This document shows, in pieces, positions 17,837-51,019 of a DNA stretch of 51,019 bases. The stretch is from an uncultured archaeon (GTDB lineage: Archaea > Thermoproteota > Nitrososphaeria > Nitrososphaerales > CALBXV01): assembly GCA_937890045.1 (NCBI GenBank), contig CALBXV010000413.1:1-51019 (forward strand). The letters run 5' to 3'. Positions within the stretch are counted from its first letter, which is position 1. Every line of letters starts with the position of its first letter. Position numbers and translations under genes: made by a program. The notes below the pieces were generated by a model that saw nothing but the letters and a program-made list of their open reading frames with translations, was not told the DNA's origin and ran no database searches.

Positions 17837-18202
17837 TTAAACATCAATCGCCCAAGACTGTGTAACAAGTACTCTAGTCTTAGTGCGTTTTAAGTGTGGT
17901 CTATAAGCCAAGCATTTGCCTGAGCAGTCCCAATCATTATCATCATACACACCTCTATCAGTATTCTCACAAATGCCCATCGTTTCAAGGCTTTCGTATA
18001 TTTCATCATCAGTATGCTTGGCATCAAACAACCACCAGCCGCAACCCATCTCGCCAGACTCATGAATACTTTCGCCATAATGACGAACACCACAGTCTGC
18101 CCAAAGTGTGAATTCCTTAATATCATTCTTCATCCTAATCAATTGAGATTCCAGATTAGGAAGCTCAAGTTGTTTTGTTACTAGGTTTTTAATCAGGTTC
18201 AT
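17837..18202 (-). CDS. Hypothetical cysteine-containing protein
   Basis: A 121-residue protein with several Cys and Trp residues in its second half (GEMGCGWWLFDAKHTDDE, MGICENTD, DWDCSGKCLAY), possibly a small metal-binding fold. The ATG overlaps the glutaminase stop (ATGA), implying coupling to it. Function unknown. Confidence 0.5.
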   Translation of the reverse strand: MNLIKNLVTKQLELPNLESQLIRMKNDIKEFTLWADCGVRHYGESIHESGEMGCGWWLFDAKHTDDEIYESLETMGICENTDRGVYDDNDWDCSGKCLAYRPHLKRTKTRVLVTQSWAIDV

Positions 18203-19119: not shown

Positions 19120-20222
19120 TATATCATCCTCCTTGTTAGCATGTTACGATTATCAGCAACTAGATTCCTTTGGTGCGCTCCAGCAAATTGATTTTGGCGT
19201 TTAGTCAACCAGCTATCAAGAGCAACAACTTCATCATCCCTTACAATCCCTTGCCTTGCGTCCATACCTGAACGAGTTATGCCAAGTACAACTTTCAAAT
19301 GGCCAAGGCTTATCTTGCGTTCAGCGGCATTGCTAAAAGGTTCAGCACTGTTCATTGTGATTCTACGGTTTTGGTCAGCACGAACACTAGCCATGTTCAC
19401 AAACAACTGAGTAAAGATAATCCAGTTGATTGCTTTCTCGCCATTCACTGTTCCTGCGCCATAACGAAACTCAACTGTTCCCTGACGATACCAAGCAAAG
19501 AAATTCAAACCACTAAAACGGTCAATTTGAAAACTTGCTCGTCTCATGCCTCTCATTATTCTATGGTAAGCATTAAAGTCAGTAGCAGTTAGGAAGTTCC
19601 TGATGCTTTTGTTACGTTTAGCATTGCTAGTGCTAGTGAACATTGTTTTGGTTTCATAGTCTTTCAACCAGGAATCATCTGCATAACAGCTAGACATTTT
19701 CTTGGCATATGTACCAGTCAGACGGCTCAAAGGAAGTAAGCTATAAATCACATGCTCATAACGAGCAACTAATGTGACAAGATATCTTACTTTTTTGATT
19801 GCGATGTTTAATGCTCTGCCGCCACGACGAGCCATACGTTTCCATTCATTACAATCATGGTGAACATGAAGGCCACAGGTGCGATTTACTTCAGCACCTA
19901 AACTAACCAACGCATCCATCACTCTTTTAACTTCTGCCAAGCCATCACGTCCTTTTAATGGTGGGCTGACAATTTCAACATTACCAATCAATCTACGAAC
20001 TAAGGAACCTAAGGAACGGACAGAACTGTCACCAGTTATTTTCCATTCATCATAAGTTCTGTGATAACCACCAACCCTAAAATTAAGACCAGTTGCTTCT
20101 AGCAAATCGTCAGCTAATTTATTATGGTTAGCATCACCTCTGTACCTGTATCTAATAGGTACTAAACATTCAATTTCAACTCCGAATGCACGCTCTTCGT
20201 TAAAACGACCTTTTTTATTCAT
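19119..20222 (-). CDS. Amidoligase (glutamine synthetase / ATP-grasp-related family)
   Basis: Start placed at the ATG at 20222, with GGAG nine bases upstream. The 367-residue product opens with RAFGVEIECLVPIRYRY (family signature FGxEIE). It then has EIVSPPLKGRDGLAEVKRVM, VNRTCGLHVHHDC with paired His, and GTVEFRYGAGTVNGEKAINW. These are the conserved acidic/His/Arg blocks of the amidoligase family. These enzymes form amide or isopeptide-like bonds using ATP. Tight coupling to a class II glutaminase, with a GGCT homologue downstream, reproduces a gene set described computationally for phages. The substrate is unknown. Confidence 0.85.
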   Translation of the reverse strand: MNKKGRFNEERAFGVEIECLVPIRYRYRGDANHNKLADDLLEATGLNFRVGGYHRTYDEWKITGDSSVRSLGSLVRRLIGNVEIVSPPLKGRDGLAEVKRVMDALVSLGAEVNRTCGLHVHHDCNEWKRMARRGGRALNIAIKKVRYLVTLVARYEHVIYSLLPLSRLTGTYAKKMSSCYADDSWLKDYETKTMFTSTSNAKRNKSIRNFLTATDFNAYHRIMRGMRRASFQIDRFSGLNFFAWYRQGTVEFRYGAGTVNGEKAINWIIFTQLFVNMASVRADQNRRITMNSAEPFSNAAERKISLGHLKVVLGITRSGMDARQGIVRDDEVVALDSWLTKRQNQFAGAHQRNLVADNRNMLTRRMI

Positions 20223-20362
20223 GATTTTTGACTCCATTCTTGTTTATTCTTGTAATCTCTAATAATCATGTAAGGAATATACACGATTTGACAATGCAAA
20301 GCTACATTTTTTGTACTTTTTGTGTATTTATTTTATATTGGTATCTTCATGTATTACACTAT
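20223..20362 (-). promoter_or_regulatory. Intergenic gap, possible promoter for the amidoligase operon
   Basis: About 140 AT-rich bases separate the polymerase stop from the amidoligase start, in a genome where gaps are rare. On the minus strand there is a TTGTCA hexamer followed after 18 bases by CATGAT, a weak sigma-70-like pair. No hairpin terminator is visible. This is the clearest break in the replication block, so a promoter here is likely, but the exact boxes are uncertain. Confidence 0.35.
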
Positions 20363-25219: not shown

Positions 25220-25948
25220 TTATGCTCCTGTCGGTAATATGCAACCTGTTAAATAATCATGACGTTCCTTTTCTTCTAATAACCAACACAATAATTCTGC
25301 AACTCTAGCAGGGTCGGTTTCTTTCTTTGCTGGCAAGGATTGTCTTTGATATTCTTGAGCATGTTCTTTAGTCCAACCACGCAACTCAACAACCTTTTCG
25401 TCGATGTAATCACTCATTTTTGTATTCTTCATTCGGTTTGGTGCTATACCAAAAACTGTTATATCATGTAATTTGGTTAATTCCCTTGCCATTTGTTTTG
25501 TCATTATATGAGCAGCACCTTTGCTGGCATTGTATGCTAAACTACTTGTCATGGGTATGTGAGCCGCATTGCTGACAATATTAACAATTGTGCCTTTGCT
25601 TTTTTTCAGCTGGGGAAGTAGTGCCTGTGAAACAAGGAATATTCCTTTGGCATTTGTGCCCACAACTTTATCCCAAAGAGACTCATCCATATCTTCTATG
25701 AATTCAATACCATTCACCCCTGCACAATTAATTAAAATATCAACATCATCAATTTCCTTCACTGCACTTTTAACAAATTCAGCATCTGATACATCACAGA
25801 CAATATCCCTTGCAACAGAATCTACTTTGGTATCATATTCAGGAGCACCGCTGTAGCTAAGATTATAAACCATGTTATCCACTGCCATGATTTTGAGTAT
25901 TTCATGGCCAAGACCTGAACTGCCGCCTGTAATTACTATATTTTTCAT
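25220..25948 (-). CDS. Short-chain dehydrogenase/reductase
   Basis: A 242-residue SDR with the NAD(P)-binding motif TGGSSGLG at 7-14, the NCAG motif (LINCAGVNG, about 72-80), the catalytic Ser in VNIVSNAAH and the YNASKGAA motif (Tyr and Lys) near 138-145. All key residues are present, so it should be an active oxidoreductase. The substrate is unknown. SDR genes are rare in small phages; here it sits between a dUTPase-HAD fusion and an Nmad1-type gene, which suggests processing of a modified nucleotide or sugar. Confidence 0.88.
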   Translation of the reverse strand: MKNIVITGGSSGLGHEILKIMAVDNMVYNLSYSGAPEYDTKVDSVARDIVCDVSDAEFVKSAVKEIDDVDILINCAGVNGIEFIEDMDESLWDKVVGTNAKGIFLVSQALLPQLKKSKGTIVNIVSNAAHIPMTSSLAYNASKGAAHIMTKQMARELTKLHDITVFGIAPNRMKNTKMSDYIDEKVVELRGWTKEHAQEYQRQSLPAKKETDPARVAELLCWLLEEKERHDYLTGCILPTGA

Positions 25949-34698: not shown

Positions 34699-36083
34699 TA
34701 TTCAACTCTCATTTTTATAGAAATATTCCTTTGCCCACCTGATTCCACAGGTACATCAAAACCACTAGCATCCCACAGCCTAACTCGTTGTCTATAACCT
34801 TCTTCATCTTGATAATAGAATCTATTCTTTGCAAATTGAACTGTATTCTTAAAGAAATTGGTTACACTTGTTGATACAGACTCGTCTAGCCTAACATTTA
34901 GATTGACAAATTTTTCTGCGGCTCCAAAATCAGTTACTTTTGCATGGCCAGCACCTGATGTTTTCACCAATTGCTTTGGATTTATAGGTTCGTGTAATGG
35001 CAACTTTCTAAGATTTCCTAAATCAATAACAGTGCTTCCATATATTAGCTTTATTCCTGTTCCAGATGTTACATCATGCAGAAATTCCTGAACCATTCCG
35101 ATTTTATCAGCCGCAACATGTACATTCATCCACCCAATTACAGAATAAGCAAAAGATTCCTGAATTCCTATATCATCAAGAGCAGTTGTTTCGTAATTAA
35201 CACGCCATACTCCAGGTGTTTTTGTTACACCCTGTCCTATAACTAGGTCATCAGTATTAGACCTTGTGTGTTTCCACACATCAACAACTTTACCAACAGT
35301 GCCTTGACTAATACCTATGCCATCAATCGCAGAACGATGACCTGTCATAACAAAAATGAAAGATTGCTCTATGTTTAGGCTATCTGTTGCTGTCCTTAAA
35401 TGTTTCCACACACTTGGAACTTTGCCAACAGTACCTTGGCCAATTGCTATATCATCTGTATTTGACCTTATGTACTTCCACAGACTTGGAACTTTGCCAA
35501 CTGTACCTTGAGAAATACTAATAGCATCAAGTGCCGAACGGTTTCCAGTTATAACCTTACCAACTGCTTGTTCAAAATCAATAGAATCAACAGCAGATCT
35601 TACATTCCTCCAAATCCTTTCATCTTTGCCAACTGTACCCTGACTAATACCAATATCATCATCAAGAGGTCGTACATATTTCCAAACTGTTTCACTTCTT
35701 CCAACTGTACCTTGGCTAATAGATATATCATCATCTGCTGATCTAGCAAAATAAGGATATATTTCTAGGTTGCCGCTGTAATCATATGGGCTTCCTCCAC
35801 TTACTTGCTCAATCTTTAGCTGATATTCAGTTTCGTGTGCTGTTATATAAGAGCCAGATATTGTCCAACTAAAACTACCGTCATTGGCAGTGTTACTAGC
35901 TAGTGTGGCAATTAGATTGTTGGCTGTGTTATATAGTGTAATTTTAACATTACCAACCGACCCTGTAGTTGACCAAGTAATATTAACTGTATCACCGACA
36001 TAAAATGTTCCTGAATTCGGTGCTGTGATGGTAATAGTGGCTGGTGCACTAATTTCAAAAGTTCCTGAATATGCATATGCCAT
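34698..36083 (-). CDS. Distal tail protein: Kre9/KNH-like domain, tandem repeats, C-terminal tail domain
   Basis: A 461-residue modular protein. Residues 12-95 form an Ig-like Kre9/KNH-type domain (ITITAPNSGTFYVGDTVNIT, FSWTISGSYI). Residues 115-323 are tandem repeats with core DDIxIxQGTVGKxxxxWK. Residues about 340-461 form a tail domain whose pattern (PLHEPINPKQ, HAKVTDFGAAE, RVRLWDASGFDVPV) matches the whole 126-residue protein at 37854-38234. The domain pair implies gene duplication. Likely a baseplate or side-fibre component. Confidence 0.65.
   Translation of the reverse strand: MAYAYSGTFEISAPATITITAPNSGTFYVGDTVNITWSTTGSVGNVKITLYNTANNLIATLASNTANDGSFSWTISGSYITAHETEYQLKIEQVSGGSPYDYSGNLEIYPYFARSADDDISISQGTVGRSETVWKYVRPLDDDIGISQGTVGKDERIWRNVRSAVDSIDFEQAVGKVITGNRSALDAISISQGTVGKVPSLWKYIRSNTDDIAIGQGTVGKVPSVWKHLRTATDSLNIEQSFIFVMTGHRSAIDGIGISQGTVGKVVDVWKHTRSNTDDLVIGQGVTKTPGVWRVNYETTALDDIGIQESFAYSVIGWMNVHVAADKIGMVQEFLHDVTSGTGIKLIYGSTVIDLGNLRKLPLHEPINPKQLVKTSGAGHAKVTDFGAAEKFVNLNVRLDESVSTSVTNFFKNTVQFAKNRFYYQDEEGYRQRVRLWDASGFDVPVESGGQRNISIKMRVE
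35114..35741 (-). repeat. Coding tandem repeats, three super-repeats of about 68 residues
   Basis: Nine consecutive units can be read in the 461-residue protein. Most are 24 residues (type A, ending QGTVGKxxxxWKxxR) and two are 20 residues (type B, ending VxTGxR). They occur in the order A A B, A A B, A A C, where C is a degenerate last unit. The DNA also repeats, for example the complement of ACTGTACCTTG. Such units may set the length of a rigid rod. Confidence 0.75.
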
Positions 36084-36385
36084 TATTGAGGAGCCTCAGA
36101 GTAATCTATTCTTATTCTATATGCATCACCATAATTAGAATATGAGTTGGCAAGGGTAACATCAATCCCTTCCTCCCCACCGCTTACAGCATGAGAACCT
36201 GAAAAAAGTGTTGAGACATTAGACCATGAACTACCATTATAATATTGAAGTTTTATTTCTTCAACCCTCCAACCCGCACAAGCAAGAGTTTGGTTATGAT
36301 CCCACTGTACAGTAAAAGAATTGCCAGTGCTAAATGAGGAACTGCCTGTGGGATTATCTACAGTGACTATTGAACATATTGGCAT
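36083..36385 (-). CDS. Ig-like (Kre9/KNH-type) small tail protein
   Basis: A 100-residue single-domain protein: VDNPTGSSSFSTGNSFTVQW, IKLQYYNGSSW and DAYRIRIDYSE give the same strand order as the N-terminal domain of the 461-residue protein downstream (GTFYVGDTVNITW... YQLKIEQ). It therefore looks like a duplicated Ig-like module. It overlaps both neighbours by one base. Surface-binding roles are typical for such domains on virions. Confidence 0.6.
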   Translation of the reverse strand: MPICSIVTVDNPTGSSSFSTGNSFTVQWDHNQTLACAGWRVEEIKLQYYNGSSWSNVSTLFSGSHAVSGGEEGIDVTLANSYSNYGDAYRIRIDYSEAPQ

Positions 36386-36993
36386 TACTGGTCAACCGCT
36401 ATGTCCCATGTAATTTTTACTCTGTCGGCAACTTGCATAGTGAAAGAAGTAATAGAATAAGAAGCAATTGGCCAGTTATATGAACCAGGACTGTTCGAAG
36501 CTTGATTATTTGCTCCGATTGTCCAATATTTCCCCATATATGCAGTTGTTATTGTCCCTGTAGCACCATTCCCATCGTCTTGAGTACCGTTCCAAGTTGA
36601 TTCCGCTACCCATCTGGCAGTATAAGCATCAGGTTGAGAAAGTGTTGGACCAACTAAAAAGAATCCTTGTGTATAAGATGATTGGCCAGAAACAGTAGCA
36701 TTCGCATCTATAAGTATTCCATGAGTATTCTCCTGATCGTGGTCACCACTTTGATCCCAGTATCCATGTGCATCGTCATGCCAACCCGAAGCAGGCAATT
36801 GATAAGTTGAAACGCCACTAGTCTCTCCATCTATGTGGTGTACTATTCTTTCCAAAAGATTATTGTCTACTGTATTTTCACCTTCATCATGAAAAGTAGG
36901 TTCCATCTTGTGAATATCTTCTGGGTGAAATACATCAACCTTGACATATCCACGTAATTTAATTGAATTATATTTTGGTATAAAAATTTCCAT
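36385..36993 (-). CDS. Putative baseplate/fibre protein
   Basis: A 202-residue protein with AGGAGAAACT before the ATG. It opens with a short strand (KLRGYVKVDVFHPEDI) and ends FTMQVADRVKITWDIAVDQ, matching the start (ISGRVKVEITRADG) and end (DGDQLTITWTITLADA) of the 156-residue neighbour. The middle carries a His/Asp-rich loop (HDDAHGYWDQSGDHDQ) that could bind metal. The two proteins are likely paralogues. Role unknown, probably distal tail. Confidence 0.55.
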   Translation of the reverse strand: MEIFIPKYNSIKLRGYVKVDVFHPEDIHKMEPTFHDEGENTVDNNLLERIVHHIDGETSGVSTYQLPASGWHDDAHGYWDQSGDHDQENTHGILIDANATVSGQSSYTQGFFLVGPTLSQPDAYTARWVAESTWNGTQDDGNGATGTITTAYMGKYWTIGANNQASNSPGSYNWPIASYSITSFTMQVADRVKITWDIAVDQ

Positions 36994-37001
36994 AGTTTCT
37001 C

Positions 37002-37472
37002 CTATGCGTCAGCTAATGTTATTGTCCAAGTAATTGTTAATTGGTCTCCGTCTTCCAAAGTTGTGCTGAATGAATCTGTTGCATGTAAAGTTGTGAAAGA
37101 ACTAGTCGACCAATTATAGCCTAATTTTGCTCCTGTTAGAACTTTTTGGTTTGAGGCTCTAACAATGCCAATATATTGATACTGATAAGCTGTCAAACCT
37201 GATGTCGTTTCAGTACATTCTGTTTCATAATCATTACTGTTAGTGTGAACAACAATACCACTTTGACCGTTTGGCACACTGCTGAAATACGAACCATCAA
37301 ATAAAGCTGTTTGGCTTATACCAAAAGTTTGAGCTGCTTGCAAGGAATCTGTTATCATTGCTTTCAATGAATTTTCAATATCATTAGAATGTTCAGGTAT
37401 GTGGTCAACCGTTCCATCTGCTCTGGTGATTTCTACTTTTACTCTACCTGAAATTGGTACTTTATCTTTCAT
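37002..37472 (-). CDS. Putative baseplate/fibre protein, paralogue of downstream gene
   Basis: Start placed at the ATG at 37472, eight bases from AAGGA; the earlier start at 37529 would run into the nuclease gene. The 156-residue product has N-terminal VKVEITRADGTVDHIPEHSN and a beta-rich body ending in TITWTITLADA. This layout agrees with the 202-residue protein that follows. Likely a distal-tail structural protein. Confidence 0.55.
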   Translation of the reverse strand: MKDKVPISGRVKVEITRADGTVDHIPEHSNDIENSLKAMITDSLQAAQTFGISQTALFDGSYFSSVPNGQSGIVVHTNSNDYETECTETTSGLTAYQYQYIGIVRASNQKVLTGAKLGYNWSTSSFTTLHATDSFSTTLEDGDQLTITWTITLADA

Positions 37473-37473
37473 A

Positions 37474-37857
37474 TCATTTTCCTTTAAACTTCTGTTTTTT
37501 GCCTCCGTGATACTCATAAGCGTGACCATGCATCTTTAAGAGGTCATTTAAGCTGTTTTTTTGGCCTTTTAAGAAGATTTCGCCCAAAACACGCCCATAT
37601 TTCCCAACTCCGTGAGATATGATTGTAAAACGCCCATTATCACTGTTTTCTAATTTGCCCTTTGTATAGGCTTTTGCTGCCAGACCTTTTACCTTTTCTG
37701 CCTTATCTCTTGTGCGGCACTCCCAAGTATCAACTCCCATAAATCTAATCCGCTTTTTAACATGTGTGTCAAATCCTAAATCAATCATAGCATCTGCTGT
37801 ATCGCCATCAACTACTCTAACCAATTTAGCAGGATATACAAAATGAACTGGCTTCAT
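37474..37857 (-). CDS. Staphylococcal-nuclease (thermonuclease) homologue
   Basis: A 127-residue SNase-fold protein. VVDGDTADAMIDLGF, KKRIRFMGVDTWECRTRD and GKYGRVLGEIFL contain the equivalents of catalytic Arg35, Asp21/Asp40, Glu43 and Arg87 of the family; Trp replaces the usual Pro in DTxE. No signal peptide is seen. It lies inside the distal tail operon and overlaps the 126-residue tail gene by four bases. It may degrade host DNA late in infection or be carried by the tail. Confidence 0.88.
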   Translation of the reverse strand: MKPVHFVYPAKLVRVVDGDTADAMIDLGFDTHVKKRIRFMGVDTWECRTRDKAEKVKGLAAKAYTKGKLENSDNGRFTIISHGVGKYGRVLGEIFLKGQKNSLNDLLKMHGHAYEYHGGKKQKFKGK

Positions 37858-38234
37858 GTTATTTCATCCCTCAATGTCAATTTAACATTATAAAGACCAC
37901 CCTTGACTGCTGGGAAATTTAAACCTTTAGCATTCCAAAGCCTTACTGTGTGGGTTGAATTATTTTCATCCCTAAAAATAAATGTGCCAAGGGAATAATT
38001 TATGTTTGAATTTTGTAGAAATGTTAGTAAGGCATCTCTATTGGTTTTGCTGATATTATTTACAACAACTTGTCTTAATTGCTCCGCATCCCCATAATTA
38101 ACAACCTTAACCTGACCACCTCCAGCAACCCCTATGTTCTGTGATGGGTTTATTGGTTCGCTAATAGGCAGTGAACGTTCCTTTTCGAAGGTGAAATTCG
38201 TTACACTGCCATGTTCAAAACTTGGTAATGCCAT
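37854..38234 (-). CDS. Tail domain protein (Dit-like candidate)
   Basis: A 126-residue protein with the pattern PISEPINPSQ, GQVKVVNYGDAEQ, then a strand block ending THTVRLWNAKGLNFPAVKGG. This is shared with the C-terminal 120 residues of the 461-residue protein. It ends exactly where the DUF2589 gene stop occurs upstream. Position a few genes after the tape measure would fit a distal tail protein, but the intervening H-NOX island displaces it. Function inferred. Confidence 0.6.
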   Translation of the reverse strand: MALPSFEHGSVTNFTFEKERSLPISEPINPSQNIGVAGGGQVKVVNYGDAEQLRQVVVNNISKTNRDALLTFLQNSNINYSLGTFIFRDENNSTHTVRLWNAKGLNFPAVKGGLYNVKLTLRDEIT

Positions 38235-38866
38235 TAGCTTTCTTTGTCTTGCTTGGTATTAATAGGTTCAATAACACTAGCAAGTATCTGGGTGAATCTA
38301 GCCATTCCCTCGGCTGGAGGTAATTGCTTTGCTGATGCATCAACCGAATACTTAGCAGAAAAATCTGTAGAACGAGTATTATCTTTGTGACTTGATACAG
38401 TCCCAGTAACATTATAATGAGCAGAAGCACTAACATGAGCACCAAACCCTGACCAACCACCCGAAACTTTACCACCTTTATCAGTAGTGGTAGATGAATC
38501 AGCACTGCTGGTTGCACTAGTGTGTTGACCCACTTCCATATCAAAGTGAATCTGCATAGTATCCATAGCGAAATTCGGAATAGTAACCAAAGGAAGTACA
38601 GGCATCTGTATTTGCTGGTCAACTTTTTCAACTGCTCCTGTAGTAGCTGAATTGGTCAGCCTTTCTAGATTGACATTTATAATATTCGCATCCCTGCTAT
38701 TATCATCGCCACCCTTAGATGGCTTGAAAGCTAGTTCTTCAACAAAGTCTAAAGTGACTTGTGCTAATTGTCTCTGTCCTTTTGCTGCTCCAATAATAGG
38801 TGCTACAATAAGATCTTCAATTGGTAAGCCAACAAATGCTTTTACTGTGGTGTCTTGTTCTGCCAT
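38234..38866 (-). CDS. DUF2589 family protein
   Basis: A 210-residue protein with GGAGCAT before the ATG. Residues 10-45 (LPIEDLIVAPIIGAAKGQRQ... LDFVEELAF), the central MPVLPLVTIPNFAMDTMQIH, and the C-terminal SAKYSVDASAKQLPPAEGMA are the three blocks I know from DUF2589: N-terminal amphipathic helix, a vPlL..vP strand, and a final strand plus PeGlar helix. The Ser/Thr/Gly/His-rich middle is low-complexity. DUF2589 has no known function. It ends the four-gene H-NOX island. Confidence 0.72.
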   Translation of the reverse strand: MAEQDTTVKAFVGLPIEDLIVAPIIGAAKGQRQLAQVTLDFVEELAFKPSKGGDDNSRDANIINVNLERLTNSATTGAVEKVDQQIQMPVLPLVTIPNFAMDTMQIHFDMEVGQHTSATSSADSSTTTDKGGKVSGGWSGFGAHVSASAHYNVTGTVSSHKDNTRSTDFSAKYSVDASAKQLPPAEGMARFTQILASVIEPINTKQDKES

Positions 38867-38876
38867 GATATGCTCC

Positions 38877-39311
38877 TTATGGTATTAACTTGTTCAGGTT
38901 ATCTTTTATTCTGGCCAATCCCTCAGGTGTGTCTTTGCCATTAAATACCACCTTGATTTGAGCCATCCTTTTACTTTTATTCCTTTTACTTAAATCTGTC
39001 ATAAATCTTCTCAGCTTTCCACCCTTACCTTTGTCTGTAACTTCTTCATCATTATCACTTAAAGCAACTTCCATCTCAATTGATACTTCTTTAATAGCCA
39101 TCCCATAGTGAGGAACGAGGGTGATTGTAGGAACTTTAACAATCTGCATCTTCCCTGAATTCCCAACTGGTAATGATAATGGGACTGTGTGTGGGTTTCC
39201 GTCTTTATCAAAATAATCTTCTTTAATTTCACCCAAGTAATGCTGCTCCACTGTATTCTGGGCTTCAACAATTGCACTGTATATGCTCTTAAATACATCA
39301 TCTAAATTCAT
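38877..39311 (-). CDS. DUF2589-like companion protein
   Basis: A 144-residue protein. Its order of blocks mirrors the next gene: an N-terminal helix (MNLDDVFKSIYSAIVEAQNT), a strand VKVPTITLVPHYGMAIKEVS, and the end IKVVFNGKDTPEGLARIKDN, which corresponds to the PxEGlar helix of DUF2589. A basic loop (LSKRNKSKR) interrupts it. So it is likely a paralogue or heteromeric partner of the 210-residue protein. The start overlaps the membrane protein's stop by one base. Confidence 0.6.
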   Translation of the reverse strand: MNLDDVFKSIYSAIVEAQNTVEQHYLGEIKEDYFDKDGNPHTVPLSLPVGNSGKMQIVKVPTITLVPHYGMAIKEVSIEMEVALSDNDEEVTDKGKGGKLRRFMTDLSKRNKSKRMAQIKVVFNGKDTPEGLARIKDNLNKLIP

Positions 39312-39799
39312 TAATCGCTACTTCTCAGTCTCTCTACTTCTTTTTCAAGAGTATCAATTTTAAATACATTCGCCTGTATATCAGCCTGAAGTGCATACCA
39401 CATTCCTATCAATGATATGATTCCAGTTATAGCTGCCACCATTGTTTGGATGGATAATGTAAATTTTTTTGCTAGTATTTCATCATCGCTGACAGGGGAT
39501 TTATCAGGTGTCGGTACTGCCTTAGATACAACTGGCTTTGGAGTAATCTTCTTTTGTAAAATTGTTTTTTGTAATAGTCTATCCCTCTTTGACTTTTCCC
39601 TTTCAGACTGTGCTTCACTCGCTTCGCCTAGCATAACCTCTGTCAAGTCTTCAACGGTAATATATCCCATCTCAGTTAGAGATTGACCGAGTTCTTTATC
39701 CCCACCATGAGGGTTTTTAAGAATAGCCTCAGAAAGCTGTTTCTTTGTGATAATATCAGCATCCATTAACAACTTGCCTAGTTTGCTTTTATTAGCCAT
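39311..39799 (-). CDS. Membrane protein with MshEN / GspE N-terminal-like domain
   Basis: A 162-residue protein whose ATG overlaps the H-NOX stop by 8 bases. Residues 5-56 show the paired helix pattern of the MshEN/T2SSE N-terminal domain: KLGKLLMDADIITKKQLSEA, then ELGQSLTEMGYITVEDLTEV. A basic linker, one membrane helix (about 113-136, TLSIQTMVAAITGIISLIGMWY) and a short coiled coil (LEKEVERLR) follow. Some MshEN domains bind cyclic di-GMP, but here the leading Arg is Lys and the motif Gln is Lys28, so binding is doubtful. It may receive a signal from the H-NOX protein. Confidence 0.7.
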   Translation of the reverse strand: MANKSKLGKLLMDADIITKKQLSEAILKNPHGGDKELGQSLTEMGYITVEDLTEVMLGEASEAQSEREKSKRDRLLQKTILQKKITPKPVVSKAVPTPDKSPVSDDEILAKKFTLSIQTMVAAITGIISLIGMWYALQADIQANVFKIDTLEKEVERLRSSD

Positions 39800-40343
39800 C
39801 AGCAGTAAACTTCACCTCAAATACATCGTGGTCATCAGTTCCTTTATACTCTATCTGAGTAACGTCTGCTGTGCCTCCAAAATGCTGTGCAATACCTTTT
39901 AATGTTCCTATTGCCAATGGTGCTAATCCTTCTCTTGGTGATTCATAATGAATCTCAAAGTGATTGTCTCCAAGAGTTTCTATCTTAAACGAAGGTGGAG
40001 CAAGGCCAGGAAGCATCTCTGCTATCCTAACATGCATCTCATCTAGTCCACTAACAAAAGTTTCAAAGTCATTACCAAAGGCATTGAAATAATCTCCATA
40101 TCCTTTTGGTGCGACTTCTAATGCCCAATAAACACCAAACATTTCTAATACATCTGATGCAGGAACTCCTAATGTTTCAGATGCAGCTCCGACAAGCGAA
40201 TAAGTAACAGAATCATCGTATCCTTCTAAATTCTCAAATACATCTTCACCTACTCCAGAAGATTCAAGGACTTGATTCCATACTTCTTCTCCAGCTTCTC
40301 TTGTTACCAAAGTTCGAATAGCTTCATTAATCATTCCATACAT
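39792..40343 (-). CDS. H-NOX (haem nitric-oxide/oxygen-binding) sensor protein
   Basis: Start set at the second ATG (40343), six bases after GGAG inside the tape-measure end, giving 183 residues beginning MYGMINEAI, as in bacterial H-NOX proteins. All landmarks are present: GYDDSVTYSLVGAASETLGV (41-60), the axial haem ligand His104 in LDEMHVRI, PPSF at 116-119 and the propionate-binding YESPR (Y133, S135, R137). The position of the oxygen-stabilising Tyr of the thermophilic family member is Pro142, so NO selectivity is predicted. Length is standard. H-NOX usually controls kinases or cyclic di-GMP enzymes; in a phage tail operon it is unexpected. Confidence 0.9.
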   Translation of the reverse strand: MYGMINEAIRTLVTREAGEEVWNQVLESSGVGEDVFENLEGYDDSVTYSLVGAASETLGVPASDVLEMFGVYWALEVAPKGYGDYFNAFGNDFETFVSGLDEMHVRIAEMLPGLAPPSFKIETLGDNHFEIHYESPREGLAPLAIGTLKGIAQHFGGTADVTQIEYKGTDDHDVFEVKFTADG

Positions 40344-40346
40344 CAT

Positions 40347-43007
40347 TTACTCCATTTCCAGATATCCGCTGTTTTTAGCTACATTGAATGCTCGGGCAAA
40401 TTCTTCAGGGTTCATCCTTACATAATTCTCCAACCCTGCACTATCAAATGTTGATATATTAATCACCTGCTGGTCTTGCGAACCTATTTGACCTGTTTCA
40501 TTAATTCGTTCTAAATTTTCTTGCCCTGCTGTTTGTACAGATTGTCTGTTTATAACAAATTCTCCAGATGTTAGCATTGCTGGTACATTATCAGAACCTC
40601 TCTGACCTGAAATCATACCACCCATTGCTTTTTTAGGCTGATATTTTGCAGCATCAATTTGAGCAACCCTTTGCATGCCTGCAGCAACTGCTGCTGCGGC
40701 TGCTGCAAATCCTAGTGCTGGACCAACTACTGGGATTCCAGCTAGTGATTTATATGCTGCTGTAGCACCTGCATAAGTATCTACAACTGCCTGAACCTTT
40801 GCTGCTGCTTTCCACACTGCGAAATTTTCTTTACTAGCATTTTTATTAATCGCTGCAACACCTTCTATTGCACTAGCAGCATTTTGGAATCCCTGATTAA
40901 TTAGCTGAGATTTTTCATTTTCAATTTGTCTAGTCTGTTCTTTTGCCCATGCATCTGCTTCTGTTTCATCAACCTTTGCTGCTACAAATTTGTCCCTCAT
41001 CTCATTTATTTTAGCAATCTTCTGATCCCACGTCAAAGTAAACTGTTCAATGTCAATGGAATTAAATTGTTCTTGCAGAGTAAGTATTTTTTCTGCACCA
41101 AAACTATATGAATCAATTAAGGCTTGTTGTCTTTCTGAGTAAAGAGATTTCAGTTTTGCATTCTTGCTTTCTTCTAATAGTAGTGCTGCGGCTGCTGCTT
41201 TTGCAGCTGCATCCCCTTCGTCATCTCCATCCCCATCACTTGGTGAAGGTGGTGTAAGTTTATCTTTGTGTATAGCTAAAAATTTGTCAGCAAAAGCCTC
41301 TAATTCAGTGCCAACTAAACCAATAGATTTCCCCCACTCCTGTGCCCAACTAGCCATCTCAGCAAATACAGCCTCTTCGTCCATAAGTGCTGGCATTTTG
41401 AAATCACCAAATCCCTGTTTTAATTGTTGTTTTGCTTCTCCAGTTAAAGCAGTTGTCCAGCCTTTTTGTGTGGTTGCCCAAGATGTAAAAACATTTGCCA
41501 GTTGAGCTCTTCCAGAGCTACCCATATCTCCAAAATAATTATATACATAATCCTTGCCTGATTGTACACCTTCTGTTTCGGCAATTTTTCTAGCATCTCC
41601 AAAAACCTTTTTAAGATCTCCAGTTATCCACCCTTTATCAAATAAACCCTGTGCAGCTTTTAAACCTGAATCACCCCACTCTTTTATCATTCCTTGCGAT
41701 GCTTGTATTGCTGCTTTCTTTTGGTCGTCTGGAAAGAATACATCCTTCCACTGAATTTCACTTAATGCATGCAACCCTAGCTTGAATGCTCCGACTGCTA
41801 ATTTCACCGCCATTTTGAATGCTGCCATAATGGTTTTAGGGATCGGCTTAACCATATGACCAACAATTCTATTCATCATTTCCATTACTAATGTCATATT
41901 ATCAGATATATAATTGCCTAATTCACCCCACCCTATCCTGCCAATATTTTCAAAATACAAATTGATGTTGTCAATAGGGTCGGCAATATTTTCTAAAATC
42001 TTACCACCCAAAACCCGCATAGCATTAAGCACATTCTGTTTAAGTTTAGACATCTTAACAGAAACAGCCTTGTTCATCTCCTCTACAGCCTTTGCTGTCG
42101 CACCAGAACTTTTTTGCATATCATCCAATGCTTTAGAAAAATCATCCGCACCATCACCAGCCAATGGTAATATGGCTTGCATAGAACGAATATTGCTTAT
42201 CAAATCAACTATTGATAATCCTGAATTCTCAGATGCCTTTTTAACTGCCTCAAGTGCACCTTTAAGACCTTCCTGCTGTAATAGTGCTTGTGTACTTTCG
42301 ATGCCTACCTTTGCCAAAGCATCCTGTAATTCGCCAGACGGTTTCATCAGCTCAACTATTGCTGAACGTACTGCTGTGGTTGCTTCCTCGGTTGATTGAC
42401 CTCTGGCTGTTAATACTGCCATGGCAGCACCTAACTCATCCAAATTCACCCCAGCAGGAGCAGCAATTGCAGCCACACGACCAAAACTACCAGCAATTTC
42501 ATTTACAGTTGTTTTACCTAACCTTACAATTGTGAATAATTTATCACTTACTTTGGTGACATCTTTGGATGTTTTACCATAAGCATTCAAAGTAGTTGTT
42601 AATAAATCAGCAGCAGTAGCAACTTCAGTAACACCGCCAACTGCCAATCTAGCAGATTCATCCATAACACGCATTGATGATGCTGCTGTATTAAATCCTG
42701 CTGACACAATATCATACCTAGCCTTGGTCAGAGATTTCATTGCTTGGCCAGAAGTAGAGGCGACACGCATAAGTTCGTCGCCCATATTTTTCATCTCTTT
42801 ATCAGTAAGACCACCCATAAGAGTTCCAATTTCTCGGAGACCCTTATCCATATCAGCAGCAAGTTTTAAACCAACACCACCAACAGCCGCACCTGCAATA
42901 GCACCAAATTTGGCGAATTTTGTTCCTAATCGCTTAACACCCCGACCTACCTTGAGAAGAACTCTCGAAGCACTATCGGTGGCAATTATTTTGACTCTTA
43001 AAGCCAT
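40347..43007 (-). CDS. Tail tape measure protein (TP901 type)
   Basis: An 886-residue protein with AAAGGATAAT before the ATG. Residues about 60-340 are the TP901 core: MDKGLREIGTLMGGLTDKEM, ATAADLLTTTLNAYGKTSKD, GQSTEEATTAVRSAIVELMK. Hydrophobic stretches lie near 395-410 and 760-790. The C-terminus has GGMISGQRGSDNVPAMLTSG, frequent at tape-measure ends. It sets tail length and probably forms a membrane channel on DNA entry. The following H-NOX start overlaps its end. Confidence 0.93.
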   Translation of the reverse strand: MALRVKIIATDSASRVLLKVGRGVKRLGTKFAKFGAIAGAAVGGVGLKLAADMDKGLREIGTLMGGLTDKEMKNMGDELMRVASTSGQAMKSLTKARYDIVSAGFNTAASSMRVMDESARLAVGGVTEVATAADLLTTTLNAYGKTSKDVTKVSDKLFTIVRLGKTTVNEIAGSFGRVAAIAAPAGVNLDELGAAMAVLTARGQSTEEATTAVRSAIVELMKPSGELQDALAKVGIESTQALLQQEGLKGALEAVKKASENSGLSIVDLISNIRSMQAILPLAGDGADDFSKALDDMQKSSGATAKAVEEMNKAVSVKMSKLKQNVLNAMRVLGGKILENIADPIDNINLYFENIGRIGWGELGNYISDNMTLVMEMMNRIVGHMVKPIPKTIMAAFKMAVKLAVGAFKLGLHALSEIQWKDVFFPDDQKKAAIQASQGMIKEWGDSGLKAAQGLFDKGWITGDLKKVFGDARKIAETEGVQSGKDYVYNYFGDMGSSGRAQLANVFTSWATTQKGWTTALTGEAKQQLKQGFGDFKMPALMDEEAVFAEMASWAQEWGKSIGLVGTELEAFADKFLAIHKDKLTPPSPSDGDGDDEGDAAAKAAAAALLLEESKNAKLKSLYSERQQALIDSYSFGAEKILTLQEQFNSIDIEQFTLTWDQKIAKINEMRDKFVAAKVDETEADAWAKEQTRQIENEKSQLINQGFQNAASAIEGVAAINKNASKENFAVWKAAAKVQAVVDTYAGATAAYKSLAGIPVVGPALGFAAAAAAVAAGMQRVAQIDAAKYQPKKAMGGMISGQRGSDNVPAMLTSGEFVINRQSVQTAGQENLERINETGQIGSQDQQVINISTFDSAGLENYVRMNPEEFARAFNVAKNSGYLEME

Positions 43008-43008
43008 A

Positions 43009-43434
43009 TTATCCTTTTAACAAATGGTTGGTTTTTATATTGTGTATTGTCTGTATTTTTTCTATCATGAAATCAATTGCATCGATATTTTTGTGAGTAT
43101 CTGGTAAGAAATTATCAAGTACAAATTCGAGGCCAGACAATGTTGGTATGTATCCACGCATCATTTTCTTACCCTTTGACCACTCAACTTCTTGCACATC
43201 TGATAAGGAAATAACCCTGCCATACAATTCCATGGCCAAGTGATTATTTCTGTCAAGTTGGAATGGTTCTGTCTGTCTTTTATCATTTTCGTCTATCCAT
43301 CCCTTAACTATTTCGCATTTCTTTCCTTCAGTTTTCTCACATAATGGTAAATCTTCATGGCCTCCCTTTGACCTTGCCCTATGTAAAGCTCGGCAGTCTA
43401 AACAATACATATAATCCTGCCGCCAGAGACACAA
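43009..43434 (-). CDS. T-like tail assembly chaperone extension (frameshift product candidate)
   Basis: The frame is open from about 43470 to 43009 and has no ATG until 43413 (MYCLDCRALHRARSKGG), which has a modest AGGA upstream; the TTG at 43434 is another option. It is in the -1 frame relative to the upstream 123-residue chaperone and is entered by the A AAA AAT heptamer at 43455-43461. The fusion would be 271 residues, close to lambda gpGT (279). The N-terminal part has four Cys (CLDC, LPLC, KKC). It lies two bases before the tape measure, as expected for a T domain. Confidence 0.65.
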   Translation of the reverse strand: MCLWRQDYMYCLDCRALHRARSKGGHEDLPLCEKTEGKKCEIVKGWIDENDKRQTEPFQLDRNNHLAMELYGRVISLSDVQEVEWSKGKKMMRGYIPTLSGLEFVLDNFLPDTHKNIDAIDFMIEKIQTIHNIKTNHLLKG

Positions 43435-43451
43435 AATCTCTACATAGGTGA

Positions 43452-43823
43452 TTAATTTTTTATTTCTTTTTCACGCTTTTTCCCTTTTTTATCAGTAACA
43501 GACCCTGCCATATCCACAAATTCAGGCATAATAACTTCTTCAAGGAATGCCATAACAGTAAGTGCTGGCAATGCTGAGATGTATTCAGATGAAAATTTAA
43601 CAGATTTATCATTATCATCAACAACACCTTCCCAGCCAACAATCATCGCTTCCATAACTTCATAACCTAATTCAAGTGATTCTTCTTCAGGAATTACGCC
43701 ATTGCTCATATGCTTATACAGCAACCGCTTTTGTTCCAGGAAATTCAGTTTTTTATAGATTAAAAATGAACCCTCCGTTTCATAACGGTGGGTAATTTCA
43801 GGTGATACTATCTTTATGGGCAT
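43452..43823 (-). CDS. Tail assembly chaperone (G-like)
   Basis: A 123-residue acidic helical protein that begins within the hairpin element at 43818-43834 (GGAGGCACCAGATGCCC). YKKLNFLEQKRLLYKHMSNG and ALPALTVMAFLEEVIMPEF are the helical blocks. It sits between tail-tube and tape-measure genes, the invariant place of the gpG-type chaperone. The last codons before the stop form an A AAA AAT slippery sequence. It would coat the tape measure during assembly. Confidence 0.75.
   Translation of the reverse strand: MPIKIVSPEITHRYETEGSFLIYKKLNFLEQKRLLYKHMSNGVIPEEESLELGYEVMEAMIVGWEGVVDDNDKSVKFSSEYISALPALTVMAFLEEVIMPEFVDMAGSVTDKKGKKREKEIKN
43455..43461 (-). other. Probable -1 ribosomal frameshift site (A AAA AAT)
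   Basis: On the minus strand the chaperone ends ATA AAA AAT TAA. The heptamer A AAA AAT fits the X XXY YYZ rule in the correct phase. A -1 slip continues as AAA TTA ATC ACC into the downstream 43009 frame. That frame is blocked by TGA 15 bases upstream, so the slip window is tiny and contains this heptamer. Confidence 0.65.
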
Positions 43824-43834
43824 CTGGTGCCTCC
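43818..43834 (-). promoter_or_regulatory. SD/start-codon hairpin element GGAGGCACCAGATGCCC
   Basis: The ribosome binding site GGAGG and the start ATG of the chaperone gene lie in the imperfect inverted repeat GGCACCAGATGCC, which could hide the start codon. The same 16-base string occurs at 50384-50400 at another gene start (one base different) and at 6448-6464. This suggests translational control by a shared factor, or copying of a start module. Confidence 0.45.
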
Positions 43835-43840
43835 ATTCTT

Positions 43841-44059
43841 TTATTTAGATTTAACTTTCTTGACTATTTTTTTTGCTTTTTTCGCAACCTTTTTTACCAA
43901 AGGTTGATTCAGAACTTTACCATCAGAATCTTTAAATTCACCCATTTCAGGTGGAATTTCCTTGATGATAAGAACTTCTTCATCAGAGCATTCCCGAACT
44001 TTTTCAGCAAAAGAAATGTTTCCAATTCTGAATTTACGATAAGGTGCTACAACTTTCAT
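43841..44059 (-). CDS. Small structural-region protein with lysine-rich tail
   Basis: A 72-residue protein with strong AAGGAGTAC before the ATG. It begins MKVVAPYRKFRIGNISFAEK and ends in a run of Lys (VKKVAKKAKKIVKKVKSK) resembling DNA- or RNA-binding tails. Short proteins with a YRKFRIG-like opening are found next to tail genes in some phages. No function assigned. Confidence 0.55.
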   Translation of the reverse strand: MKVVAPYRKFRIGNISFAEKVRECSDEEVLIIKEIPPEMGEFKDSDGKVLNQPLVKKVAKKAKKIVKKVKSK

Positions 44060-45550
44060 TTAGTACTCCTTATTCTGGTCTCTGAACATTTGATAGGGAT
44101 TCTGATTTCTAACACGAACCACCATCTCACTCCTGGGAGCAACAACATTCTGGGTTGGACCACCATCTGACCAGTAAGGTTGAGCAGCTGGGACTAAAGC
44201 AGTAAAATCAAACGACTGCGATAATGCCTCTGGACCACCAACTGGAACGCTACCTTTAGTCAATACAATAGAAGAAAGAAATATTTCAAATCTCCTAGTG
44301 ATAGTTGCCATGGTACTTCCCTCGAATTGAATGTGTGCCATCAGTTTTGTGTTATTATTTAAGAAATCCATGAATGTATCAGAATCATACCTTGGTACTG
44401 TAAATGAGCCAGAAACTTCTCTTCGGCCACCACGAGTAGGTTCCATCCTATACACCCCTGACGATGAACTTTGCGAATCAGATTGCAAATTGTTATTAAC
44501 AGATATGCTAAAATCACTGATTCCATATTCATCACCAGATACTAAAGCACCACCAGACGCTGAATCATAAGCAGCAATCCTGAAAAATGTAATGTCGCTG
44601 AACATCGCTCTCTCATTTTCAGACGGACTGAATAGATTAGCACCTGATTTTCCGTGATTGTAATTCCAAGTTGAAGATGATGAATTTGACCCAGAAGATT
44701 TATCCATGTTAAATGGTATTAATTCAAATGAACCTGTCAAACCACTGCCTGCTGCAGCTGCAAGAGTCATTGAATTAACATAACAACTACGCCACACCCA
44801 AATTGATTGACCTTTATCAACAGCAAAAGTGCCTCGTCTTATTATTTGGTCACTTGCTGTACCTACTCCAGCTGTTGGATAACTACTATTTTCGTCTGTC
44901 CACAATTCATCATTCATTTGTTTACCTAATTCAAACACATGGGTAAATTCATTACTGACTTCATAACCGTCACTTGCTGCAGGATTAACATCCCAAGCAT
45001 CAGATACAGTTAAAGTTGAATTTGTAGAATCTGTTATCCTTCTGACCTGACCTGACCTTGCGACAGAACCTTTAATTCTAACGAATTTTCCAATTTGAGC
45101 ATCGTCAGAGCCAAAAGGATTTCCGCTATCAACAATGGTAGTGCCATCACCACCAGTCGCTGTCCCTGCAATTTCTGCAGTCCCATCTGTGTAAACAGGT
45201 TGTTGACTTGAAGATGTACCAGGATGTTCATAACCCATAGCACATGCCACTAAAGCATCCATACCATCATACATACCAGAAACTTCAACAGCACCGCCAC
45301 CCATGATTGATACCCTATCAGATACTGATGCTCCAGGACTACCTGTTAATGTTTCAGCAACTTCAATAGAGTGTTCCTGTTCTACACCTTCGCTAGTAAA
45401 ATGAAGAAGATCTGAACTACCAAGCACAACTTCTTCATTGTCTGCTATTGCTTCGGTGGTCGGATATGCTGCACTAGCCATTCCAGTTCCTGATACGGAA
45501 CCACCTTCAATTCTGAATGCAGCTTTTGATTTTGTTCCTAATCCAGCCAT
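44060..45550 (-). CDS. Tail tube protein, large paralogue
   Basis: A 496-residue protein with GATAGGAGGATAAA before the ATG. Its blocks SCYVNSMTLAAAAG, FSISVNNNLQSDSQSSS, RGGRREVSGSFTVPRYDSDT and FMDFLNNNTK match, in order, the downstream-strand neighbour at 45563-46624. About 140 extra residues (about 100-230; for example GSVARSGQVRRITDSTNST) form an insertion, probably an Ig-like surface domain. Two tube paralogues may build a tube with two subunit types, or one may be a tube initiator or decoration. Confidence 0.78.
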   Translation of the reverse strand: MAGLGTKSKAAFRIEGGSVSGTGMASAAYPTTEAIADNEEVVLGSSDLLHFTSEGVEQEHSIEVAETLTGSPGASVSDRVSIMGGGAVEVSGMYDGMDALVACAMGYEHPGTSSSQQPVYTDGTAEIAGTATGGDGTTIVDSGNPFGSDDAQIGKFVRIKGSVARSGQVRRITDSTNSTLTVSDAWDVNPAASDGYEVSNEFTHVFELGKQMNDELWTDENSSYPTAGVGTASDQIIRRGTFAVDKGQSIWVWRSCYVNSMTLAAAAGSGLTGSFELIPFNMDKSSGSNSSSSTWNYNHGKSGANLFSPSENERAMFSDITFFRIAAYDSASGGALVSGDEYGISDFSISVNNNLQSDSQSSSSGVYRMEPTRGGRREVSGSFTVPRYDSDTFMDFLNNNTKLMAHIQFEGSTMATITRRFEIFLSSIVLTKGSVPVGGPEALSQSFDFTALVPAAQPYWSDGGPTQNVVAPRSEMVVRVRNQNPYQMFRDQNKEY

Positions 45551-49431: not shown

Positions 49432-49637
49432 TTATCCCTCAACATATCTTCAATGTTATCAACTCTCTGAATTATATAATCCAGCTTGGTTTCTATCAGC
49501 TCTTTATCAGCTTTTGCTTCCACCTTTTTCTCAATGTAATCAATGCGTGTAGAAGTCATCCCCCACATCACAGCTACGCCCACAAGCAAAGTCACCAAAT
49601 AGATAGCATCTTTCAAAAATGGAAAATTACTTTTCAT
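49428..49637 (-). CDS. Holin-like protein, one membrane helix plus coiled coil
   Basis: I chose the ATG at 49637 with AGAGGA upstream, giving 69 residues. A membrane helix (IYLVTLLVGVAVMWGM, 12-27) is followed by a charged heptad region (YIEKKVEAKADKELIETKLD) as in XhlA/hemolysin-type phage proteins. Direct coupling to the endolysin supports a holin or spanin role. It overlaps the end of the MscS-like gene. Confidence 0.7.
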   Translation of the reverse strand: MKSNFPFLKDAIYLVTLLVGVAVMWGMTSTRIDYIEKKVEAKADKELIETKLDYIIQRVDNIEDMLRDK

Positions 49638-50025
49638 GATTCCTCTGATCTTGTTTAGGTGCATCAAGTATATACCTTGATAAATCTACATTTTCCAGTG
49701 GCTTTTCTATTTGCATTTCCATTAAAGCACTGTTTTGGACAACCAATTTACTGCCACCTGCAATATAGGCTTCTCCTGTGTAAATGTTATTCCTGACATT
49801 ATACAAAAAGAATACCGTTTTTGTAAATCCCACCCTGACAATCCTACCAGGACGACCATTAATGTAAACAATATCATCGGCATTATAATCATTCCCGACA
49901 AATACCAGAAATCCTGATACTGCTGATTCTATGAATCTTCGGAAAACAAATACCAATACCAAACCTGTTATCCATAGCGTTTGTTCTCCGATCCAGGTGT
50001 GAACCGTTTGTTCTATTGAGCCCAT
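49627..50025 (-). CDS. Mini MscS-like protein in the lysis cassette
   Basis: A 132-residue protein. Residues 15-42 are one membrane segment (LWITGLVLVFVFRRFIESAV) with a GFLVFVG end. Residues about 45-105 follow the MscS beta-domain pattern: GNDYNADDIVYINGRPGRIV, VGFTKTVFF, then SKLVVQNSAL, comparable to the family's GDxVxIxGxxG...T...IPNxxl. Full MscS channels have three membrane helices and a larger cytoplasmic domain; here only the pore-helix-like part and the beta domain remain. Its place before the holin-like and endolysin genes suggests a lysis role. Alternative: a virion or superinfection membrane protein. Confidence 0.65.
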   Translation of the reverse strand: MGSIEQTVHTWIGEQTLWITGLVLVFVFRRFIESAVSGFLVFVGNDYNADDIVYINGRPGRIVRVGFTKTVFFLYNVRNNIYTGEAYIAGGSKLVVQNSALMEMQIEKPLENVDLSRYILDAPKQDQRNHEK

Positions 50026-50422: not shown

Positions 50423-51019
50423 TTAATATCCACCAAGTTTTATAACAGAAACCTTGTGTGCTCCTTTTCCTGATTCAAGTGTGATATATGTCATTGCCCA
50501 TCCATTCCCTCTTGTATAGGTTCTCGAAGGTGTAGTGCCAGATTCAACGATATTATTAACAGTTGGGTCTCCATTAGAACTATCTATCCATACATAATCT
50601 AATGCACTTCCATTTCCACCATCATGTGTAACAGAAACAAGAAATCCTTGATAGTCGTAGGCTTGGCATAACTTGTGTGCCCCTGAACTATCAGACACAT
50701 GAAAATATTTCGCCCATAAATAACCATTACCATCACTTCCATTAGTAACCTTATAACCTTTATGAGGGCTATTATCAACAAATGAACCAGCCTCCATCCC
50801 TACAGTCCCAGCGAATGTACCAGTAGTTGCTGAGATTGGTCCAGTATGCAGAGTTGCACTACCATTTAGCCATACATTAGCTGAAGAATCAAATTGTAAA
50901 GCGTCAACATAAGAGCCAGTTGATTTTGTAGAAAATGTTAAATTGCCACTTGTATCTCCAACCATTCTCCATTTATCAGCATTATCATCACCCTCATCTG
51001 CCCAAATATCTATCTCTGC
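50423..51019 (-). CDS. Tail fibre protein, C-terminal part (cut by window edge)
   Basis: The frame is open from the last base of the window and ends at 50423, 198 residues. It reads from the edge AEIDIWADEGDDNADKWRMV, a motif (ADxGDDNADKW) common in aquatic-phage fibres. The rest (SATTGTFAGTVGMEAGSFVD) resembles the sequence at the left end, and the C-terminal 90 residues form a distinct beta domain ending VSVIKLGGY. The phase at 51019 matches the phase at base 1. I take it as the C-terminus of the gene that starts at 1443. Confidence 0.8.
   Translation of the reverse strand, partial: AEIDIWADEGDDNADKWRMVGDTSGNLTFSTKSTGSYVDALQFDSSANVWLNGSATLHTGPISATTGTFAGTVGMEAGSFVDNSPHKGYKVTNGSDGNGYLWAKYFHVSDSSGAHKLCQAYDYQGFLVSVTHDGGNGSALDYVWIDSSNGDPTVNNIVESGTTPSRTYTRGNGWAMTYITLESGKGAHKVSVIKLGGY

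Follow-up and report, generated by a model that had tools for sequence, protein, structure and literature searches.

The window, by which we mean the whole stretch of 51,019 nucleotides analysed here, carries genes for a major head protein, portal, terminase, neck and tail proteins and a DNA polymerase; it is a tailed-phage genome. The reading frames at its two ends (1-1443 and 50423-51019) are both open and lie in the same frame, and there is no terminal repeat. Thus the window probably represents a complete circularly permuted genome cut within one gene. Its terminase matched 358 phage records, with 25-28% identity in the eight matches listed, and its tape measure gave one weak contig match. 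Other genes seen in the window code for a Staphylococcal-nuclease-like protein among the tail genes (37474-37857), an adjoining glutamine amidotransferase and amidoligase (18199-20237), a FabG-like reductase (25220-25948) and, near the endolysin, a short MscS beta-domain-like protein (49627-50025), which scored below the cut-off; a copy at L044:6817-7224 reached E = 2.7e-7. Here and below, L-numbers denote IMG/VR contigs or loci and G-numbers the genomes compared.

The gene under study, at 39792-40343 on the minus strand, encodes a complete H-NOX protein. Its open frame spans 39792-40346, and the plus-strand reading is crowded with stops. Translation yields 183 amino acids from the ATG at 40343, or 184 from a second in-frame ATG adjacent to it, 3 nt further 5' (40346). 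Because GGAG lies 6 nt ahead of the ATG at 40343 and homology to the phage contig L003 begins exactly at this codon, 40343 is the likely start.

The preceding gene (40347-43007, minus strand, 886 amino acids) matched tape-measure families, i.e. PHROG 991 with E = 9.1e-48 and Pfam PhageMin_Tail with E = 1.4e-25, in agreement with the first-pass annotation, which had placed H-NOX directly behind a tape measure in a phage tail operon. An overlap of the H-NOX start with the end of the tape measure had also been claimed and was not found: the tape-measure stop (40347-40349) directly adjoins the upstream ATG. It is the 3' end of the H-NOX gene that overlaps a neighbour: its stop and the start of the next gene, W53 (39311-39799, minus strand), share 8 nt, and the two genes thus look translationally coupled. 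The 162 amino acids of W53 comprise an MshEN-like domain, a linker and one predicted transmembrane helix. Directly after W53, with an overlap of 1 nt, lies a gene for a DUF2589 protein (38877-39311, minus strand; PF11655, E = 3.4e-19), followed by a second one (38234-38866, minus strand; E = 3.2e-25). DUF2589 as a partner of H-NOX was dropped because it was absent beside H-NOX and W53 in the fetched stretches of the other H-NOX phages. The PADLOC models of anti-phage defence matched neither H-NOX nor W53, the two DUF2589 proteins or the frame at 43009-43434.

Genes for histidine kinases, GGDEF/EAL, FIST/NosP or Nudix proteins neighbour H-NOX in bacteria (PMC8738867, in part). The phage gene resembles those pathways as a stand-alone H-NOX beside the gene of a likely partner, but differs in that none of the named families occurs among the ten genes scanned around it. 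Its direct neighbours are the tape measure, W53 and the two DUF2589 genes, which is not the canonical H-NOX signalling operon.

The H-NOX protein and its haem site

The full-length H-NOX called in the first-pass annotation was confirmed by a profile search, as proposed there, and by structure prediction. The Pfam HNOB profile (PF07700) was covered end to end (positions 1-162 of 163) with E = 4.6e-46 and 157.1 bits at a cut-off of 25.5, and the top match of a PDB sequence search was the Nostoc H-NOX Alr2278 with E = 2.6e-44. An AlphaFold (AF2) model had a pLDDT of 91.5 and a pTM of 0.88, and Foldseek assigned it to the H-NOX fold with a TM-score of 0.93 to the Nostoc H-NOX 3tf8. The likeness to Alr2278 of Nostoc sp. 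PCC 7120 extends over the whole length of the fold (TM 0.91-0.93), that to the human sGC beta1 H-NOX domain in its NO-bound states is similar in kind (TM 0.87-0.89), and the alignment has the His, YxSxR, Pro118, Trp74 and a Pro at the distal-Tyr position in common. On the other hand, the phage protein is viral, has 38% identity to the Nostoc protein, and has as its partner an MshEN-like membrane protein instead of a cyclase, kinase or chemoreceptor.

The MYGMINEAI start, proximal His104, PPSF, YESPR and the Pro in place of the distal Tyr, all read off at first sight, were each present in the translation. The codon of the proximal haem-ligating His is at 40032-40034 on the minus strand (His104 from the start at 40343, corresponding to His105 in P0001 numbering), and the Pro stands five residues past the Arg of YxSxR. 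Judged by residue, the protein has the proximal His, the YxSxR motif and an NO-type pocket that lacks a hydrogen-bonding distal Tyr.

The same residues recur in 89 phage-type H-NOX sequences, 78 of which are metagenome proteins, some of them partial. The proximal His is present in 87, the other two having L and T; haem-site Tyr, Ser and Arg are found in 84, 83 and 83 sequences, the remaining five to six cells being gaps. The haem site of phage-type H-NOX is thus conserved in these alignments. The distal-Tyr position is Pro in 83/83 non-gap sequences, which by residue bears out the earlier assignment of an NO-type rather than an O2-type pocket. From the spacing to YxSxR and our general knowledge of the structures, we take this Pro to be at the equivalent of Tyr140. 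The role of Tyr140 in the distal pocket of H-NOX is treated in part of PMC7356049. The conserved His, Tyr, Ser and Arg together with the distal Pro favor binding of NO without stable binding of O2, as in the Nostoc H-NOX. On this basis the phage H-NOX should bind NO (and CO) and not hold O2, with NO as the presumed ligand.

A tree built from 45 H-NOX proteins put the 23 phage-type rows on one side of a branch with a support of 100/98; 13 of these rows are metagenome proteins labelled phage-type solely by a similarity of at least 70%. The dN/dS values were 0.034-0.162 for H-NOX, with 0.035 for the window against L003, and looser for W53 with 0.072-0.457 (each from 23 finite values among 26 pairs listed, of 45). 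The ratios indicate that phage-type H-NOX is under strong purifying selection.

H-NOX and W53 as a pair

A scan of IMG/VR with H-NOX gave 15 contigs with 73-97% identity, and a wider alignment query returned the identical 15. L013, L014 and L017 end inside H-NOX and were left out of the pair count. In 12/12 contigs that continue past H-NOX, as in the window, the next gene is a W53 homologue; the 12 include copies of one phage and, not counting the window, amount to some nine different sequences. For L008 and L015 the ORF caller chose antisense ORFs, and W53 was shown by tblastn in both and by direct translation in L015. Identity to the window was 72-97% for H-NOX and 42-87% for W53 in the paired contigs.

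The genes in front of the pair vary. H-NOX follows a tail-fibre gene in L003 and a tail spike plus one small gene in L005, lies two genes downstream of a tape-measure-like ORF in L004, and is near tail sheaths in L012. The H-NOX gene has no fixed association with tape measures; the neighbour that stays constant is W53. The frequent position beside tail genes in other phages, too, makes the late expression with structural proteins proposed in the first-pass annotation probable. Nothing points to the packaging in the virion that was also considered there. Since the genes preceding the pair differ from phage to phage, we rejected virion cargo or a function linked to the tape measure as the main reading.

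The protein comparison covered fetched stretches of 6-21 kb per contig; in these, H-NOX, W53 and at most one more protein per contig matched the window at E ≤ 1e-4. The additional match was the endolysin in L005, L006, L007 and L015, W67 with 34% identity in L012 and W9 with 27% in L003. At the nucleotide level the homology to L003 comprised 39315-40343 (minus strand) with 85.1% identity and no other bases, i.e. it begins at the H-NOX start codon and stops 4 bases short of the end of W53. L004 and L008 showed homology over almost the same region, and L005, L006, L007 and L015 over this region plus part of the endolysin gene. Between L010 and L011 the identity is 90% across a 1.7-kb block with H-NOX, W53 and the gene that follows, of family c3, versus 65-73% elsewhere in pieces of at least 200 bases (among the 12 listed). 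With such sharp borders and the block common to L010 and L011, the two genes appear to have been transferred together. The window phage appears to have acquired a mobile, putatively sensory two-gene cassette of about 1 kb, whose carriers are otherwise dissimilar phages.

This bears on the idea that H-NOX serves as a buffer, i.e. that abundant protein traps NO and protects phage production while W53 is a bystander anchor. A gene behind the tape measure, and often beside tail genes, is probably expressed late and abundantly. Yet W53 is always paired with the phage H-NOX and has travelled with it, which argues against a bystander, and we regard this explanation as very unlikely.

The nearest genome, G001 (1.8 Mb, 91% complete), has 87% of the sampled words of the window in common. 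Two of its contigs match the window at 99-100%: C1 spans the tape measure into the first bases of H-NOX at 100%, and C15 covers W53 onward and crosses into DUF2589, the contig break falling inside H-NOX. Thus both junctions, tape measure to H-NOX and W53 to DUF2589, are seen in a second assembly. G001 is a candidate host, or else a bin that attracted phage contigs. A chimaeric contig at this gene, which the first-pass annotation had named as a reason to give up its call, is contradicted by the exact crossing of the junction in G001. The contig break within H-NOX is what could still suggest a chimaeric assembly or a viral bin contaminated with bacterial DNA. Against this stand the two junctions, an even GC content (0.35-0.43 in 500-bp steps over 36000-45000) and the recurrence of the pair, in diverged form, in 12 other viral contigs. 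Furthermore, the best 80 of 284 relatives in GTDB genomes included no H-NOX above 48% identity, in a search from which records near the window were perhaps excluded. Such an artefact is scarcely credible.

Within the nearest phylum H-NOX was detected in 1/245 genomes, as the fragment in G001, and in none of the 244 others. Among 50,697 phage records there was no match to H-NOX and no relative of W53 or of a W53 from a locus without H-NOX; a viral structure library searched with the H-NOX model gave nothing at E ≤ 0.001. The W53 profile, searched in six frames, was found near none of 80 cellular H-NOX loci. As a control, the H-NOX profile was recovered in 80/80 of these loci and the W53 profile had 51 hits in the viral set; an ORF-based version of the search saw H-NOX ORFs in 61/80.

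W53 and its other surroundings

Profile and fold matches locate the MshEN-like (PilB/GspE N1) domain of W53 at about residues 6-62 (39614-39784, minus strand), and a hydrophobic stretch recognized by eye suggests a transmembrane helix at about residues 113-137 (39389-39463, minus strand). The profile match to MshEN and GspE-PilB N1 domains had E = 7.8e-10. The predicted structure is a four-helix bundle with an only moderate pLDDT of 66.5; the model has a helix from 105 to 161, which would span the predicted transmembrane segment, and the topology is a prediction. The closest folds were c-di-GMP-bound MshE and Thermus PilF. By sequence and fold W53 belongs with the N1 domains of MshE, PilB and PilF, and the model presents it as an MshEN-type domain on a predicted membrane anchor. 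In contrast to those proteins, W53 has no ATPase domain, carries a predicted transmembrane helix and keeps the c-di-GMP residues only in part. The window W53 had no Pfam match and matched no PHROG family at E 0.01, lysis families included; the Pfam MshEN models matched 0/14 members of the W53 family. Complete copies have 162-231 amino acids. W53 looked longer in G001 than in the window, but part of the G001 translation reads N, and we claim no insertion. The W53 profile also matched in 91/245 genomes of the nearest phylum, mostly ORFs of about 550-620 amino acids that are PilB/GspE-like by length.

MshEN domains bind c-di-GMP, with the motif RLGxx..G..LxxxLxxQ (PMC5013675, in part). W53 might thus be a membrane receptor or sponge for c-di-GMP that is gated by H-NOX. 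Bacterial H-NOX pathways join NO and c-di-GMP, G001 has one GGDEF protein, and the fold matches of W53 include, besides c-di-GMP-bound MshE, Thermus PilF with altered motif residues: according to alignment and entry titles the wild type has Lys replacing the motif Arg, and Gln-to-Glu mutants are titled as c-di-GMP-bound. In addition, all five W53 proteins of group B (L029-L032, L034) have kept R or K-LG together with the Q of motif I, and likewise the final Q of motif II. However, the window W53 does not have two complete motifs, with K, D and N replacing R, G and Q in motif I and E and E replacing R and Q in motif II, and Asp replaces the central Gly of motif I in 50/51 W53 sequences that cover it, the exception being L034. 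We consider a c-di-GMP receptor distinctly unlikely.

H-NOX lies upstream in 12 of the 51 W53 loci in IMG/VR, is absent in 35, and the upstream region is unseen in four. With 35 loci devoid of H-NOX, W53 has a use independent of NO. Neighbours were counted in those 38 loci, H-NOX-less or unseen, for which a W53 ORF had been called. The gene family c3, thioredoxin-like just below the Pfam cut-off, was near W53 in 35/38, c4 in 32/38 and c6 in 30/38; by visual inspection c3 and c4 are exported and c6 is lipoprotein-like. Less frequent were c14 (16/38), a POPDC/cyclic-nucleotide-binding membrane protein, and the holin-family c15 (12/38). The c14 protein at L048:10314-10967 and its homologues matched Pfam POPDC1-3 with E = 2.6e-14 and cNMP_binding with E = 2.7e-14. 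Type IV prepilin genes follow W53 in 7/52 loci, some of which are near-copies; the pattern had flagged nine loci, two of which were discarded as false (ORFs of the thioredoxin-like place). The seven (L033, L035, L038, L060, L061, L062 and L068) have one to three prepilin genes each, and all are H-NOX-less.

On a W53 tree of 50 rows, without the partial L028 and L066 and with three loci lacking an upstream view scored as H-NOX-less, the H-NOX label required 3 changes compared to 11.3 with shuffled labels; basal support was weak, the bootstrap unsettled, and near-copies favor such clustering. The H-NOX-less L040, L049 and L059 were placed among the H-NOX-bearing rows. In our reading W53 stems from an older, envelope-directed set of phage genes, to which H-NOX was added later, and the pair then spread.

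That H-NOX may steer the timing of lysis had been raised in the first-pass annotation. W53 would then be a holin- or antiholin-like protein, and H-NOX would delay or advance lysis as NO rises. In L005-type phages H-NOX and W53 are followed by small ORFs (one transmembrane helix plus coiled coil by eye) and a GH108 endolysin, and in L029 and L030 the holin-family c15, which matches PHROG 3427 in the L016/L029 contig, is the second gene after W53. The T4 holin T has an N-in, one-transmembrane-helix, C-out topology, which the predicted topology of W53 resembles. Yet any holin seen is a gene separate from W53, W53 matches no PHROG family, and to our knowledge the MshEN domain is not known from holins. 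Moreover, the endolysin of the window is about 8.6 kb away, the gene downstream of W53 is DUF2589, and the prevalent companions in the H-NOX-less or unseen loci are the thioredoxin-like and lipoprotein-like genes. The lysis timer is the main rival, though an unlikely one, and not our first choice; we prefer an NO-responsive switch that works through W53.

A proposed switch at the host membrane

The partners on which bacterial H-NOX proteins act are histidine kinases or GGDEF/EAL proteins, whose genes often lie close by (PMC8738867, in part). By analogy W53 may be the output of the phage H-NOX, and we think it quite probable that the two proteins make contact. NO that is made or met by the infected cell would bind to the haem of H-NOX, and NO-bound H-NOX would change its shape and bind or release W53. 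The MshEN-like domain of W53 would be cytoplasmic and held at the inner membrane by the single transmembrane helix, with a short tail outside. The N1 domain that it resembles probably docks PilB/GspE ATPases onto the platform in the inner membrane. W53 would then act at the host inner membrane, the likeliest target being the type IV pilus or type II secretion platform. As a tethered copy of the PilB N-terminal domain it could compete with PilB, and the cell surface could be altered according to NO. The outcome at the surface could be superinfection exclusion or surface remodelling, and in this way the cassette may affect infection.

The choice of target draws on known interactions. A contact of the PilB N1 domain with PilM at the membrane has been inferred, and the phage proteins Tip and Aqs1 bind PilB while Zip binds PilZ (PMC11656802, in part). 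We infer that a tethered N1-like domain could serve as a decoy or adaptor at the pilus or secretion platform. Tip, Aqs1 and Zip of Pseudomonas phages, which we compared with W53 by description only, thus act at the machine proposed here; they differ in that they bind PilB or PilZ, and the part of PMC11656802 used here makes no mention of regulation by a gas. In G001 three T2SSE ATPases scored over the cut-off: an extension type with an MshEN-like N domain, a second one and one PilT-like, the names beyond the T2SSE family being given by eye. PilM-, PilC- and PilQ-like and prepilin genes, recognized by eye, cluster with the extension-type ATPase, and prepilin/PilC-, PilM- and PilQ-like genes are near two of the three ATPases. 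By its gene content G001 has a pilus-type machine. Type IV pili as the target are nevertheless a tentative and somewhat doubtful assignment.

Several points speak against the switch. W53 occurs mostly without H-NOX, none of the seven prepilin loci has H-NOX, the model of W53 is moderate, and its c-di-GMP motif is eroded. In addition, ferrochelatase (PF00762) was found in 0/3 genomes of the nearest genus (G001, G107, G110). Each of these three genomes has two COX1-family haem-copper oxidases. An NO reductase in G001 was considered and dropped, since the two COX1 hits adjoin oxidase-type subunits by eye. Weighing the two sides, we give about even odds to an NO-responsive switch in which W53 acts at the inner membrane of the host, with type IV pili as a conceivable target. 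Equally balanced is our confidence in the broader statement that the exchanged cassette senses NO in the infected cell and that a tethered mimic of the docking domain of a pilus motor alters the envelope or the timing of infection.

H-NOX is a known family; its phage cassette with W53 was not found described. A search of openly licensed papers, judged by the titles listed, gave no phage H-NOX or phage-encoded NO sensor, in line with the first-pass annotation, which knew of no described role of H-NOX in a virion operon. If H-NOX binds NO, these viruses would possess an sGC/H-NOX-family protein dedicated to gas sensing, for which we found no precedent in that literature. W53 offers H-NOX proteins a new output that is concrete and testable, and a cassette of 1 kb lends itself to study in isolation. 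Taken together, the data suggest that some uncultured bacterial viruses respond to a gas as a signal from within their host. If true, phage infection would be connected to the NO chemistry of the host and its water, and viral decision-making would include a response to NO.
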